The notes under the pieces: model-generated
Database searches by the model: none
The model's input: only the letters and a program-made list of their open reading frames with translations
What the model was told of the DNA's origin: nothing
Made by a program: the position numbers and the translations under genes
Assembly: GCF_006385175.1 (NCBI RefSeq)
Contig: NZ_VFIY01000004.1
Span: 1-64,000 of the forward strand
Length of the DNA stretch: 64,000 nucleotides
Source: Emcibacter nanhaiensis
GTDB taxonomy: Bacteria; Pseudomonadota; Alphaproteobacteria; Sphingomonadales; Emcibacteraceae
Direction of reading: 5' to 3'
In this document: positions 20,185-30,840 of the stretch, in pieces
Layout: each line of letters begins with the position of its first letter
How positions within the stretch are numbered: position 1 is the first letter of the stretch

Positions 20185-21315
20185 ATGGGCGCACTTGATA
20201 AGGGGTATAAGGCTGACGAACTGATCAGGCTCGCAGCCGACAAGTCAGTATCTGCACGCAATGAGCTTGTGGAAAATATTACTGACCTCTTTTTGACTCC
20301 CGGGGGCCGACTGAATGAGCACGAACGTGCTCTCATGAATGACATTCTTTCCAAGCTCATCCTCAACGTCGAACAGCATATCCGCAGGGAGCTGGCCAGA
20401 AGGCTGGCCGATTCCATGGACTTGTCCGGTGAACTGGTGGGCATGCTCGCCAACGACAAAATCGAGATCGCCCGTCCTGTGCTGGAAAAAAACAAACTGT
20501 TGCAGGACGCGCAACTGATCGAGGTGATCCGGAACCGGACCGATGCCCATCGCCTGGCCATCGCCATTCGCGAGGATGTGTCCGCAGAGGTTAGCGATGA
20601 ACTGATTGAACATGGCAGCGAGGATGTTGTCGAGGCACTGATCAACAACAGCAGTGCCGAAATATCAGAAGCCTCTATGGAATATCTGGTGGCAGAATCG
20701 AAAAGCCTGGACAGGTTCCAGGAACCGCTGCTTAGCCGCCAGGACCTGCCGCCGGGGCTTGCTTTCCGGATGTACTGGTGGGTGTCTGCGGCTCTGCGCC
20801 GGCGCATCATCAAGGAATTCGAAGTGGATGAAACACTTCTGGATGACGCCATAGAAATGGCGACCAAACATTCTATCCAGCAGGCCGAGGAGGAAGACAG
20901 CGTCATGGATAAGGCGCTGAAGCTCGTCCGCAAGCTGGATGATGAAAACAAACTTAATACGACCTTTGTTCTTCAGGCCCTCAGGCAGGAGAAAGTAAAT
21001 CTGGCAGTTGCCGGACTTTCCCAGATTGCGGGCCTCAGTGTAAAAATAGTCTGGCGGGCTTTCAGAGAAAGAACCGGAGAAAGCCTGGCTGTCATTGCAA
21101 AATCTATCGGGCTTAGTAAAGAGGAATTCACCTCGTTGTTTCTATTGGTCATGCAGACCCGTTCCGGCGGAAAGGCCAGGGCGACCAGTCTGCTGAAGTC
21201 AATTCTTACCATGTATAACGATATCAAGGCCGCCAATGCGCGGGCGGCGGTAAGACATTGGCAGCGCGACCTGGGCTACCAGGACGCTCTGACAGATATG
21301 AAAGAGGCTATATAA
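20185..21315 (+). CDS. DUF2336 domain protein, first copy
   Basis: A 376-residue soluble helical protein. The amino half has HEAT-like repeats: RLAADKSVSARNELVENI, LSKLILNVEQHIRRELARRL, then LLANDEIE-like text (VGMLANDKIEIARPVLEKNK). This is the pattern of DUF2336, an alphaproteobacterial family of unknown function. A second copy lies at 25389-26552 with the same blocks in order. It is 3 bases from the PAS histidine kinase gene that follows, so kinase and DUF2336 protein are probably co-translated and functionally linked. Adaptor or phosphorelay partner is my inference. The ribosome site is weak. Confidence 0.85.
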   Translation: MGALDKGYKADELIRLAADKSVSARNELVENITDLFLTPGGRLNEHERALMNDILSKLILNVEQHIRRELARRLADSMDLSGELVGMLANDKIEIARPVLEKNKLLQDAQLIEVIRNRTDAHRLAIAIREDVSAEVSDELIEHGSEDVVEALINNSSAEISEASMEYLVAESKSLDRFQEPLLSRQDLPPGLAFRMYWWVSAALRRRIIKEFEVDETLLDDAIEMATKHSIQQAEEEDSVMDKALKLVRKLDDENKLNTTFVLQALRQEKVNLAVAGLSQIAGLSVKIVWRAFRERTGESLAVIAKSIGLSKEEFTSLFLLVMQTRSGGKARATSLLKSILTMYNDIKAANARAAVRHWQRDLGYQDALTDMKEAI

Positions 21316-25388: not shown

Positions 25389-26552
25389 TCAGAACAGCGG
25401 GGATTTGCTGGCGTCCTGGACCCAGCTGTGCAGTGTCAACTGGGCGCGCCGGGGCTCCATGTTGTTGAAGCGGTCATAGGCGCGGTCGATTTCTTCCTGG
25501 CTCAGCTTGGTTTCCATGTCGCGCGCTTCCCGCGTCATCCGGTAGATGGTGAGAAAGACGCTGCGGTCGATATTGATCGCCCGGCAGGCAATGGCGAGCG
25601 CTTCCGACCCCCGGTCATAAAGGATGGAGGACATGATGTCCTTCGGAATATTGGCCAGTTTGGCAAAACCCGCCTCGAACAGGGAGACCTGCCCCTGGCT
25701 CAGCGATTTCATCAGGAAAGCCGGGCCCAGCTTGCCGGCCTTGCTCAGTTTCTCGATCAGGTTCTCTTCGGCGCTAAGTAGTCCCGCGCGTTTCTCGTCC
25801 TCAGTCTCGATTTCCCTCAGGGTGCCGCTGACGATATCGTTGATATCCTCGACCGACATGGAATGGGTATCCAGGATAATTTCTTTCAGGGAATCCGACA
25901 CCCACTGATACATCTGGGCGCAAAGTTCGCGCGGGAGATCCTCGCGGTTGATCAGCGGCGCCTGAATTTCTTCCCGGTTCCGGGACTGTTCGACCAGACC
26001 CGCCAGGGTTTCATTGTCGATATTGGCATCTTTGTTGGACAGCAGGGACACCACAACCCGGTCATTGCCGGTGGTGATCAGTTCGCGGCAGACGCCCGAG
26101 GACAAATGCTTGCGGGCGGTGATGCTGAGCTGATGCTGGATGGTCTTATGGCGGATGATCTTGATCAGGTTTTTGTCGTCAAGAAGCTTGCTCAGCATAA
26201 GAACCGGGCGCGCCACTTCAATTTCGTCATTGGCCAGCAGGATAATCAGGTCCACGGATGTGTCCATGCGGGTGGCCAGCCGTTCGGCGAGCTTCTTGCG
26301 CACTTCCATTTCCACATGATGGAAAAGAGTGCCCAGGATTTCTGTCATCAGGGAAACTTCTTTACCGGACAGGTCATCATGACGCCGTTCCAGAAGGTCT
26401 GCAATAGATTCGAAAAGCTCACTGCGTCCGGAGATTGATTTTTCGTGGGCCAGTTTGATTAGACCAGTAACTTCCCCATCGAGAGTGTTGTTAACGCTCG
26501 CCATGTTGTTTAACTCTTGTACTATATTATTTAAATCTTTAAGCCTGCCCAA
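25389..26552 (-). CDS. DUF2336 domain protein, second copy
   Basis: A 387-residue helical protein clearly related to the one at 20185. It shares the ordered blocks LIKLAHEKSISGRSELFESI, HHVEMEVRKKLAERLATRMD, ILLANDEIEVARPVL and PLINREDLPRELCAQMYQWV. DUF2336 has no assigned biochemical role. The frame starts at a TTG (26552) with GAGGA upstream; ATG at 26504 is the alternative. It is transcribed alone on the minus strand, with the c-di-GMP-controlled rod-protein gene upstream. Two copies flanking one PAS kinase and one Hpt-like protein suggest a shared signalling role. Confidence 0.85.
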   Translation of the reverse strand: MGRLKDLNNIVQELNNMASVNNTLDGEVTGLIKLAHEKSISGRSELFESIADLLERRHDDLSGKEVSLMTEILGTLFHHVEMEVRKKLAERLATRMDTSVDLIILLANDEIEVARPVLMLSKLLDDKNLIKIIRHKTIQHQLSITARKHLSSGVCRELITTGNDRVVVSLLSNKDANIDNETLAGLVEQSRNREEIQAPLINREDLPRELCAQMYQWVSDSLKEIILDTHSMSVEDINDIVSGTLREIETEDEKRAGLLSAEENLIEKLSKAGKLGPAFLMKSLSQGQVSLFEAGFAKLANIPKDIMSSILYDRGSEALAIACRAINIDRSVFLTIYRMTREARDMETKLSQEEIDRAYDRFNNMEPRRAQLTLHSWVQDASKSPLF

Positions 26553-26741: not shown

Positions 26742-27164
26742 TCAATCCTTGAACTGATCCAGGAAATCTTCTTCGATTTCGGCCAGGGTTGACAGTACCT
26801 GGGCGTTGGCCTTGTAGGCGTTGGTGGCCTTGATCATTTCCCCGACTTCGACGAATTCATTCACATTGGGGATCGCCACATAACCGTCTTCGTTGGCCAC
26901 CGGATCGTCCGGGGCATAGGCGGTGAGGCTGGCCGGATTGACCGGGATATTATAGCTCATCACCCCGCCGTATTTGTTGCTGCTTTGCTCGTGTTTCAGC
27001 GGCGTATAGGCCTTGTTGACCAGCGCGGCGGCGGAGGGGTTGGCGGCAAAAGTGCCTTTGGGGGTGGAGGTATTACGGGAATTGACAATGTTGCTGGCTG
27101 CAACATTGAGCTTTGATGTGGACGCCAGAAGTCCGGAAAGACTTGTATTGATAGCGTTGTTCAT
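26742..27164 (-). CDS. Orphan FlgC-like flagellar rod protein
   Basis: A 140-residue protein with the two ends of flagellar rod proteins. The N-terminal block is TSLSGLLASTSKLNVAASNI and the C-terminal block is DGYVAIPNVNEFVEVGEMIK followed by ATNAYKANAQVL, close to FlgC. The start at 27164 has AAGGGAA upstream. FlgC normally sits in a flgB-flgC-fliE operon and builds the proximal rod in the periplasm. Here it stands alone, with no other flagellar gene in the window. Its leader carries a c-di-GMP-I riboswitch. It may be a paralogue used in a second motility or adhesion structure. Confidence 0.82.
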   Translation of the reverse strand: MNNAINTSLSGLLASTSKLNVAASNIVNSRNTSTPKGTFAANPSAAALVNKAYTPLKHEQSSNKYGGVMSYNIPVNPASLTAYAPDDPVANEDGYVAIPNVNEFVEVGEMIKATNAYKANAQVLSTLAEIEEDFLDQFKD

Positions 27165-27169
27165 CCGTG

Positions 27170-27256
27170 TTCCCTTGGTAACTCCGCTGTCCCCTGTTCT
27201 GGGGACCGGTGGTTTTGCGTCCCGGCGTCGCCGCCGGTTTGCCGTTGTCAGGAAAA
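27170..27256 (-). ncRNA. c-di-GMP-I riboswitch (GEMM-I) in the leader of the flgC-like gene
   Basis: Read on the minus strand, the leader holds the conserved GEMM-I blocks in order: GGCAAACC (27243-27236), a 6-bp stem CCGGCG/CGCCGG capped by the GNRA tetraloop GCGA (27231-27228), GGGACGCAAA (27223-27214), a second hairpin GTCCCC/GGGGAC (27206-27189), and AGCGGAGTTACC ending at 27177. These match the Vibrio Vc2 aptamer at its ligand-contacting segments. The ribosome site AAGGGAA follows directly. A possible closing helix pairs TTCCT (in 27250-27256) with GGGAA of that site, which would hide it when ligand is bound. The switch direction is inference. Confidence 0.88.
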
Positions 27257-27348
27257 CCCCTTTTCCCTGCCTACAGAGTCGCACAGGGGGTTTAAAAATC
27301 ATTTAAGGAATAGGGTTAATTTTAGGCAATGGGAAAAGTCGTGAAAAA

Positions 27349-30300
27349 TCAGCCCTTTGCGACTTTAGCCAGGGCCCGGGCCAGGTTGAGGGAGCCCTTG
27401 AGCCGGCTTTCGATCTTGCTCCATTTGCGCACATAAACCAGTTTGTGATCGGGCCGCAGTTTGGCCACGGCGGTCTGGTTGGAAATAAAGTCGATCAGGC
27501 CTGCCGGGTTGGCGAATTTATCACCCCGGAAACTGAGGATTGCACCCTTGGGCCCGGTCTCGATCTTCTCGACCCCGGCCTCGCGGCAGTAATGCTTGAT
27601 CAGGATCACCTGGAGCAGATGCTCCACTTCCTCGGGCAGGGGGCCGAAGCGGTCAATCAGTTCCGCGCCGAAGGCGTCGATGTCCTGCTTGTCGGTGAGC
27701 TCCGCCAGCCGGCGATAGAGCGACATGCGCAGGTTCAGGTCCGGGATATATTTTTCCGGGATCAGCACGGCGGCGCCCACATTGATCTGCGGCGACCAGC
27801 TGTGGTCCTCGGCCTCGGCGGCGCCACCTTTGGCCTGGGCCACCGCTTCCTCCAGCATCTGCTGGTAGAGCTCGAGCCCCACTTCCTTGATATGGCCCGA
27901 CTGTTCCTCGCCCAGCAGGTTGCCGGCGCCGCGGATGTCCATGTCATGGCTGGCAATGGTGAAGCCGGCGCCGAGCGTATCCAGCGCCTGCAGCACCTGT
28001 AGCCGTTTTTCCGCATTGGCGGTGGGGATACGCCGCGGTGGCAGGGTCAGGTAAGCATAGGCCCTGATCTTGGAGCGGCCAACCCGGCCCCGGAGTTGAT
28101 ACAGCTGAGCCAGGCCAAACATATCGGCCCTGTGGATGATCATGGTATTGGCGGTCGGAATGTCGAGGCCGGATTCGACGATGGTGGTGCTCAGCAGCAC
28201 ATCATATTTGCCTTCATAAAAGGCATGCATGATGTCCTCGATCTCGGCTGGCGGCATCTGGCCGTGAGCGACGACGAATTTCACTTCCGGCACATGCTCT
28301 TTGAGGAAATCGGCAATTTCCCTGAGGTCGGCGATGCGCGGGCAGACATAGAAGCTCTGGCCGCCGCGGTAATGCTCCCGAAGCAGCGCTTCGCGCACCA
28401 CCAGGCTGTCCATGGGCAAAATAAAGGTGCGCACCGCGAGGCGGTCGACCGGCGGAGTGGCGATCAGGCTCAGGCCGCGCATACCACTCATGGCCATCTG
28501 CAGGGTGCGCGGGATTGGCGTCGCGGTCAGGGTCAGCACATGCACGTCCTGGCGCAGCTTTTTCAGCCGTTCTTTGTGGGCGACGCCGAAATGCTGTTCC
28601 TCGTCAATGATCAGGAGTCCCAGGTTGCGGAACTGGATATTCTTGCCGAGCAGGGCATGGGTGCCGATGACGATCTCGCAGGTGCCTTTCTGCAGCTCTT
28701 CCCGGGTCAGCTTCTGTTCCTTTGACGGCACCAGCCGCGACAGGTGGCCGATCCGGACCGGCAGGCCGCGGAATCGTTCGCTGAAATTCTTGTAATGCTG
28801 GCGGGCAAGCAGGGTGGTGGGGGCGACAATCGCCACCTGGAAACCGCTCATGGCGGCGATAAAGGCGGCGCGGAGCGCCACCTCGGTCTTGCCGAAGCCC
28901 ACATCGCCACACACCAGCCGGTCCATGGGGCGGCCGGAGCCCAGGTCGTCAATCACATCCTGGATGGCGCGCAACTGGTCGTCGGTCTCGTTATAGGGGA
29001 AGCGGGCGCAGAATTCCTCATACAGTCCCTCCGGCGGGGTGATGGTTGCGCCCTTGCGCAGCTCGCGCTCGGCGGCGAGCCTGATCAGTTCATCGGCCAT
29101 TTCCAGCAGCTTTTTCTTGAGCCGGGCCTTCTTGCCCTGCCAGGCGGTGCCGCCCAGCTTGTCGAGCTGGGCCTCGGTGCCTTCGGAGGAATAGCGGCTT
29201 AGCACCTCGATATTTTCCACCGGCACATAAAGCTTGTCGCCGCCGTGATAGGTCAGCATGACGCAGTCATGGGCCGCGCCGCCCACCTCCAGGGTCTTGA
29301 GCCCCTCATAGCGGCCGACGCCGTGATCCATATGAATGACCAGGTCGCCGGGGGTCAGCGCCGAGGCCTCGGTCAGGAAATTTTCCGCCTTGCGCGAGCG
29401 GCGCGCCTTGCGGATCAACCGGTCACCGAGGATATCCTGTTCGGCGACGATTGCCAGATCATCTGTCTCAAACCCGTGTTCCAGCGGCAGGATGATCAGG
29501 CCGAGGGCGTCCCCGGGTAATTTTTCCACATCGACCCAGTCATCCAGCAGCCGGTGCCGGCCCATATCATGGTCCTTGAGCACGCCGGACAGACGGTCGC
29601 GGGCGCCGACGCTATAGCTGGCGATCAGGACTTTCTTTTCATTCTGGATCAGCGACACCGCATGCTGGCGCAGGGCGTCATAGATATTGATGTCCCGGTT
29701 ATTGCGTTCCGGGGCGAAATCCCGGCCGATTTTGCCTTTCAGGTCCAGGTGGTCCACACCCGGCGGCGAGGCATAGGGGGAGAAGCGGTGGATGCAGTGG
29801 TCTTCGCTGAGGGCCTGCCATTCCTCCGCACCCAGATACAGCAGCGCCGGGGGCAGCGGTTTATAGACACTGGCGGTCTGGCTGCCGGCGGGGCGGCTTT
29901 TCCAGTCGCTGTGCCGGGCTTGGTAATAATCCTGCACCGCCTTGAGGCGATCATCGACCGCTTCCACGCCCAGATGGTCCAGGGTCATGGGACAGTCGGG
30001 CAGGTAATCGAACAGGGTTTCCAGCTTTTCGTGGAACAGCGGCAGCCAGTGTTCCATCCCCTGGTGCTTGCGGCCTTCAGTCACCGCATCGTAGAGCGGG
30101 TCGTCATCCAGTACGGTGCCGAATTCAGCCACATAGCGGGCGCGGAAATGACGGATCGAGGCCTCGTCCAGGAACACCTCGCTCATGGGCACCAGCGCCA
30201 CCCGCTCCACCTTGTCGCCGGAGCGCTGCGAGAGAGCGTCAAATTCCCGGATCACATCCACTTCATCGCCAAACAGGTCGATGCGGACCGGATTTTCAAA

Positions 30301-30840
30301 GCCGGGCGGGAAAATATCCACCAGCCCGCCGCGCACGGCAAAGTCGCCATGCTCCATCACCGAGCTGGCGCGGCTGTAACCGTTGAGGCTCAGGAAGGCG
30401 GTAAGCTTGTCGATATCCAGCAGGCTGCCGGGGGTGATGACAAAGGAGCTGTCCCGCATGATGCGCCGTTCCGGCAGGCGCTGGCTCGCTGCATTGACAG
30501 AGGTGAGGACCAGGATCTTTTGTCCCGCCGGTGCGCTCTCCAGCCGCGCGAGCCGGCTCAGCGTCATCATCCGTTCGGCAACGATTTCATGATTGGGCGA
30601 GACCCTGTCGTAAGGCAGGCAGTCCCAGGCCGGGAAGGTGAGGATTTCAATTTCCGGCGCAAAATAGCCGATCAGTTCCGCCATATTGGCGAGCCGGGTA
30701 TCGTCCCGGGCGATATGCAGGAAGATCTGCCGGTCGGTTTCCTCGATGGTGCGCGCCAGGAACAGCGCATCCATGCCTTCCGGCGTTTTTGCGATCAGAA
30801 GGGGCACTTCGGCGTCGATGAACTGGTCGAGGATAGTCAC
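27349..30840 (-). CDS. mfd: Transcription-repair coupling factor Mfd
   Basis: A full-length 1163-residue DNA translocase that removes stalled RNA polymerase and recruits UvrA. It has an N-terminal UvrB-like module, an RNA-polymerase-binding domain (about 470-540, GDLVIHMDHGVGRYEGLK) and a RecG-like motor with Walker A GDVGFGKTEVALRAAF and Walker B DEEQHFG. It also has the TRG-motif region QLRGRVGRSKIRAYAYL and a C-terminal autoinhibitory domain. It starts with GTG, overlapping the sdhE stop by 4 bases (GTGA). The sdhE-mfd order with divergent recG is common in alphaproteobacteria. Confidence 0.97.
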   Translation of the reverse strand: MTILDQFIDAEVPLLIAKTPEGMDALFLARTIEETDRQIFLHIARDDTRLANMAELIGYFAPEIEILTFPAWDCLPYDRVSPNHEIVAERMMTLSRLARLESAPAGQKILVLTSVNAASQRLPERRIMRDSSFVITPGSLLDIDKLTAFLSLNGYSRASSVMEHGDFAVRGGLVDIFPPGFENPVRIDLFGDEVDVIREFDALSQRSGDKVERVALVPMSEVFLDEASIRHFRARYVAEFGTVLDDDPLYDAVTEGRKHQGMEHWLPLFHEKLETLFDYLPDCPMTLDHLGVEAVDDRLKAVQDYYQARHSDWKSRPAGSQTASVYKPLPPALLYLGAEEWQALSEDHCIHRFSPYASPPGVDHLDLKGKIGRDFAPERNNRDINIYDALRQHAVSLIQNEKKVLIASYSVGARDRLSGVLKDHDMGRHRLLDDWVDVEKLPGDALGLIILPLEHGFETDDLAIVAEQDILGDRLIRKARRSRKAENFLTEASALTPGDLVIHMDHGVGRYEGLKTLEVGGAAHDCVMLTYHGGDKLYVPVENIEVLSRYSSEGTEAQLDKLGGTAWQGKKARLKKKLLEMADELIRLAAERELRKGATITPPEGLYEEFCARFPYNETDDQLRAIQDVIDDLGSGRPMDRLVCGDVGFGKTEVALRAAFIAAMSGFQVAIVAPTTLLARQHYKNFSERFRGLPVRIGHLSRLVPSKEQKLTREELQKGTCEIVIGTHALLGKNIQFRNLGLLIIDEEQHFGVAHKERLKKLRQDVHVLTLTATPIPRTLQMAMSGMRGLSLIATPPVDRLAVRTFILPMDSLVVREALLREHYRGGQSFYVCPRIADLREIADFLKEHVPEVKFVVAHGQMPPAEIEDIMHAFYEGKYDVLLSTTIVESGLDIPTANTMIIHRADMFGLAQLYQLRGRVGRSKIRAYAYLTLPPRRIPTANAEKRLQVLQALDTLGAGFTIASHDMDIRGAGNLLGEEQSGHIKEVGLELYQQMLEEAVAQAKGGAAEAEDHSWSPQINVGAAVLIPEKYIPDLNLRMSLYRRLAELTDKQDIDAFGAELIDRFGPLPEEVEHLLQVILIKHYCREAGVEKIETGPKGAILSFRGDKFANPAGLIDFISNQTAVAKLRPDHKLVYVRKWSKIESRLKGSLNLARALAKVAKG

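Follow-up and report, generated by a model that had tools for sequence, protein, structure and literature searches.

A class I c-di-GMP riboswitch aptamer abutting the ribosome site of an orphan flgC-like gene in Emcibacter nanhaiensis

Judged by its sequence, the segment 27252-27173 on the minus strand of the window (the whole 64,000-nucleotide stretch of Emcibacter nanhaiensis DNA that we analysed) is a complete class I c-di-GMP aptamer. It directly precedes the ribosome site of a single gene for a FlgC-like protein of the flagellar rod family. We consider it fairly probable that the arrangement as a whole works as an OFF switch, in which an aptamer inserted behind a CtrA-type promoter would let c-di-GMP lower translation of the flgC-like gene through an extension of the aptamer helix P1.

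The aptamer and its ribosome site

The features of the leader RNA are as follows.

27173..27252, minus strand: class I c-di-GMP riboswitch aptamer (RF03167 / RF01051, clan CL00126), from cmscan and our clade model R1
Within 27173..27252, minus strand: aptamer helices P1, P2 (with a GCGA tetraloop) and P3
27170..27175, minus strand: Shine-Dalgarno (SD) sequence AGGGAA, overlapping the outer end of P1, from the sequence and the Rfam structure line
27249..27256, minus strand: UUUUCCUG, the 5' strand of P1 plus the anti-SD stretch, from folding with the aptamer enforced or free
27262..27269, minus strand: CAGGGAAA, possible competitor strand for UUUUCCUG in the ligand-free state, suggested by the minimum free energy fold

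Screening the whole window with cmscan against all Rfam models gave RF03167 (c-di-GMP-I-GGC) as the sole match above gathering, at 27252-27173 on the minus strand (65.3 bits against a cut-off of 59, E 3.6e-13, model positions 1-80 in full). The preliminary description had proposed a GEMM-I riboswitch and a search with RF01051 (c-di-GMP-I) as the check; this search matched 27253-27174 on the minus strand with 68.0 bits against a cut-off of 35 and covered model positions 1-87 in full, so that two covariance models uphold the class. A clade covariance model of our own (R1), which was built from 30 sequences with the window copy among them, scores the window aptamer at 78.2 bits. Aligning 30 related aptamers shows pairing-preserving changes on both sides at 10 of 20 base pairs.

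All of the motifs that had been named from the sequence are found on the minus strand in the order given, namely GGCAAACC, the hairpin CCGGCG-GCGA-CGCCGG and GGGACGCAAA in the 5' part, and the hairpin CCGGUCCCC..GGGGAC, AGCGGAGTTACC and then AAGGGAACACGG-ATG in the 3' part. The originally proposed span of 27165-27260 shrinks to 27173-27252 for the aptamer itself, the rest being the ribosome site and some 5' leader. With RF01051 and RF03167 the aptamer shares the P1/P2/P3 layout, the GNRA tetraloop in P2 and the conserved core, and it is full-length against both; nothing in it breaks membership, and most of the alphaproteobacterial relatives examined share the overlap between the end of P1 and the SD.

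The ribosome site does follow the aptamer at once, as had been noted: the outermost P1 pair of the Rfam structure (C27252-G27173) already takes one SD base, and the ATG, which is the first start codon after the aptamer and opens the flgC-like gene, lies 8 nt past the aptamer end. Of 53 alphaproteobacterial class I loci, 48 have an SD abutting the aptamer, and in most of the 53 the start codon usually lies 6-15 nt on. The abutting SD in most related loci therefore suggests translational control as a general layout.

The flgC-like gene and its promoter region

The gene behind the aptamer and its surroundings comprise the following features.

26742..27164, minus strand: flgC-like gene, 140 aa, orphan FlgC paralogue (flagellar rod protein family), from profiles and orthologues
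27349..30840, minus strand: mfd, conserved upstream neighbour (TIGR00580, 1010 bits; synteny)
25389..26552, minus strand: DUF2336 gene, conserved downstream neighbour (PF10098, 208 bits; synteny)
27292..27306, minus strand: TTAA-N7-TTAA, putative CtrA-like promoter box, from the leader alignment and the sole match in the window

The best PDB relatives of the encoded protein are FlgC (7bin_V, E 1.5e-19, profile positions 2-130 of 135), and it matches PF06429 with 25.4 over a cut-off of 23. It has both terminal rod motifs and the YxPxxPxAxxxGYVxxPNVN-type core in common with FlgC (TIGR01395), but it reaches 75.6 bits (E 4.4e-21) against a cut-off of 102.1 and its gene stands alone beside mfd. 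Because the TIGR01395 equivalog cut-off is not reached, we name it a FlgC-like paralogue, not FlgC. A flagellar cluster elsewhere in this genome (C4:284-303 kb) contains a canonical flgC (152 bits, TIGR01395) adjoining flgB. Since this separate gene lies 273 kb from the window gene and the two proteins share 27% identity, we regard the latter as a diverged stand-alone paralogue. The early assignment as an orphan flagellar rod-like gene thus holds, given the TIGR01395 and PDB matches and a distant cluster with its own flgB and flgC. The accompanying idea of an envelope structure outside the flagellum found no support; the protein and the CtrA-like promoter point to the flagellum itself. Stand-alone flgC-like genes are also present in other families, at other places (L058, L059, L108, L111), so that orphan FlgC-like proteins seem to form a broader group, as yet unstudied.

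FlgC-like orthologues in the Emcibacteraceae have about 40-56% identity, and nearly all of them sit, where contigs allow, between mfd and the DUF2336 gene, as in the window. On the evidence of this synteny and of a promoter motif shared by the relatives, the flgC-like paralogue is old, and the gene order mfd > flgC-like > DUF2336 is kept across the family. The window also holds a second DUF2336 gene within 6.5 kb of the first (20185-21315 on the plus strand; 25389-26552 on the minus strand), and both score far under the cut-off of the SpbR family model (173.7 and 157.3 against 400).

All 21 leaders from flgC-like orthologues, which share ancestry, contain the motif TTAA-N7-TTA, against a mean of 1.2 and a largest value of 5 in shuffles, and the exact TTAA-N7-TTAA form is also found 108 nt before flgB. 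The promoter of the flgC-like gene is probably CtrA-type. From the promoter layout of the relatives, transcription is expected to start near 27270; where this layout would put the -10 element, the window has GACTCT, a poor hexamer. One sigma-70-like site was found, at 27347-27319, and it does not stand out from chance (0.5 expected).

Distribution and origin of the aptamer

We found the aptamer before the flgC-like gene in one of the 32 Emcibacteraceae genomes searched, which is the genome studied here. None was detected at 18 orthologous loci at relaxed Rfam thresholds, nor in 78 sources, among them the orthologues and more distant homologues; the other 31 family genomes have no aptamer at the flgC-like locus, any copies in them lying elsewhere. 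Conservation of the riboswitch together with the flgC-like gene is ruled out by these aptamer-free loci. Because synteny and the TTAA-N7-TTA motif are conserved without the aptamer in the relatives, the simplest and most likely reading is a lineage-specific insertion of the aptamer between an old promoter and the SD.

Where relatives carry the riboswitch, most have their single copy before the gene of an unrelated protein of ~58 aa, and this genome has a copy before the ~58-aa gene too (C5:583142-583225). The window aptamer shares 71% identity with this other copy, while an unrelated, more distant member of the class has a copy that reaches 75%, so a recent duplication is disfavoured as the source of the second copy.

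The ~58-aa protein is conserved in relatives and has no Pfam or NCBIfam match (aptamers before its gene are at loci L009, L017, L018, L021-L024, L027-L029). A DUF3450-like gene lies ~0.6-1.1 kb past the ~58-aa gene on the same strand in most relatives (in this genome, locus C5:583142-584100), and from this recurrent order the two genes possibly form a shared unit. One relative from the order (L012 1501-1578) has the aptamer before a gene for a subtilisin-like protease (read by eye) rather than the small protein. Across 29 further alphaproteobacterial loci, read by eye, no flagellar or rod genes were seen behind the riboswitch; the genes at these loci include ParA-like, CheY-like and secreted-protein genes. 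A ParA-like ATPase (SQKGGSGKTTL...) is a recurrent target and stands behind many alphaproteobacterial class I c-di-GMP riboswitches (L062, L064, L068, L069, L071-L073, L076, L080, L082).

Predicted direction of control and ligand

Folding was compared with the aptamer pairs enforced and free, across several assumed transcription starts. The stretch UUUUCCUG can pair either with the SD, which extends P1, or with the upstream CAGGGAAA. When the aptamer is enforced, P1 extends over the SD (UUUCC with GGGAA), and for starts at 27276-27264 opening GGGAA is predicted to cost 2.5-2.8 kcal/mol instead of about 1.0, with up to 4.9 kcal/mol for the shortest leader. At no start tested does enforcing the aptamer make the SD clearly easier to open, and with a start upstream of about 27290 the SD is paired in both states. 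The preliminary description had proposed translational OFF at high c-di-GMP; the rise in opening cost for starts near 27270 (about 1.0 to 2.7 kcal/mol) speaks for this part, but the difference is matched or exceeded in 129 of 300 shuffled 18-nt leaders, so the lean toward OFF is non-specific. The extended P1/SD pairing is in the best 10% at 10 of the 53 related loci, slightly commoner than chance. As a proof of direction, conserved anti-SD pairing was rejected, being weakly above chance over the 53 loci. In the search for an intrinsic terminator as expression platform, the sole terminator-like match is on the other strand, inside P3.

Two known riboswitches offer comparisons. Vc2 represses tfoY translation in Vibrio cholerae (PMC7371385) and, like the window riboswitch as we read it, has a class I aptamer acting at translation, with the ligand lowering translation in Vc2 (PMC7371385). 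It differs in its downstream gene and, going by the title of a work cited there (PMC7371385), hides a ribosome site that lies away from the aptamer, whereas the window SD abuts P1. Cd1 represses flgB operon transcription in Clostridioides difficile as an OFF switch, and is likewise a class I c-di-GMP riboswitch before flagellar rod genes (PMC5386303). Cd1 acts by transcription termination before a whole early flagellar operon, whereas the window riboswitch precedes a single orphan flgC paralogue, has no terminator and probably acts on translation. An OFF direction agrees with Vc2 and with the logic of Cd1 at flgB, and these analogies favour it. Class I c-di-GMP riboswitches before flagellar genes are already known (Cd1); what is new is the combination, namely a single orphan flgC paralogue in a single lineage, behind a CtrA-like promoter and probably controlled at translation.

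On the favoured OFF direction, toward which the modelled folds lean, an older CtrA-type promoter common to the relatives would drive the flgC-like gene, and the aptamer would have been inserted between promoter and SD in this lineage. At high c-di-GMP, the ligand would keep P1 closed and extended over the SD (UUUCC with GGGAA), and the covered SD would give less translation of the extra rod subunit. At low c-di-GMP, UUUUCCUG would pair with the upstream CAGGGAAA and the SD would be open. Physiologically, sessile cells with high c-di-GMP might in this way restrict a rod component. A more speculative extension, to which we give a small chance, is that the lineage-gained RNA lets c-di-GMP set the amount of an alternative FlgC and so decide which subunit the flagellar rod (or a rod-like device of its own) receives.

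An ON switch would work in the reverse direction: without ligand, the upstream CCCU would hold the SD and pairing of GACUCUGU-GCGGAGUU would break the aptamer, and the ligand would free the ribosome site. Exactly these pairings appear in the ligand-free minimum free energy fold when transcription is assumed to start at 27318-27290, with the GGG of the SD about 0-10% unpaired. Yet the enforced aptamer leaves the SD no more open at any start tested, and the promoter geometry of the relatives places the start near 27270, with the 5' sequences involved outside the RNA, so we regard an ON switch as unlikely. It is still less probable, in our judgement, that a copied or captured aptamer binds its ligand without truly regulating the flgC-like gene. 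Its occurrence before this gene in one of 32 family genomes and an expression-platform folding no better than that of shuffled leaders would fit such a copy, but the aptamer is fully intact with its conserved core kept, and its spacing is functional, with the SD overlap and 8 nt before the ATG. The 71% identity to the other copy also argues against a fresh duplicate that has not yet decayed.

The arrangement places a known riboswitch class under an old, probably CtrA-type promoter before a single flagellar paralogue. A c-di-GMP input at one gene would then set one genome apart from its sister genera, which would make it a clean natural comparison for riboswitch gain and for the roles of orphan FlgC-like proteins.

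Ligand-site positions follow Vc2 numbering, in which position 20 is the base preceding the invariant G21-C22. In the alignment, the ligand-site nucleotides G20, G21-C46, A47 and the ACC at the 3' side of P1 are all retained in the window aptamer, and position 20 is G in the second copy of this genome as well. In a cGAMP-selective GEMM-Ib riboswitch, changing A20 to G turns selectivity to c-di-GMP (PMC6456294); given this effect and G20 in the window, we expect the ligand to be c-di-GMP. In the same genome, 12 encoded GGDEF domains pass the cut-off. Another cyclic dinucleotide (3',3'-cGAMP) as the cellular ligand would be in keeping with variation at the ligand-selecting position 20, where 8 of the 30 aligned aptamers have A and 2 have C, all ten of them copies from relatives, and with the clan competition, which ranks the GGC variant model best; against G20 in both genome copies and the RF01051 score of 68 bits, we consider it very improbable.

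The remaining aligned aptamers have G at position 20, and all ten with A20 or C20 come from relatives in the same order. This variation at one locus, that of the ~58-aa gene, suggests ligand switching or lost selectivity, and a varying specificity base before one conserved small gene would offer a direct test of c-di-GMP/cGAMP ligand switching.
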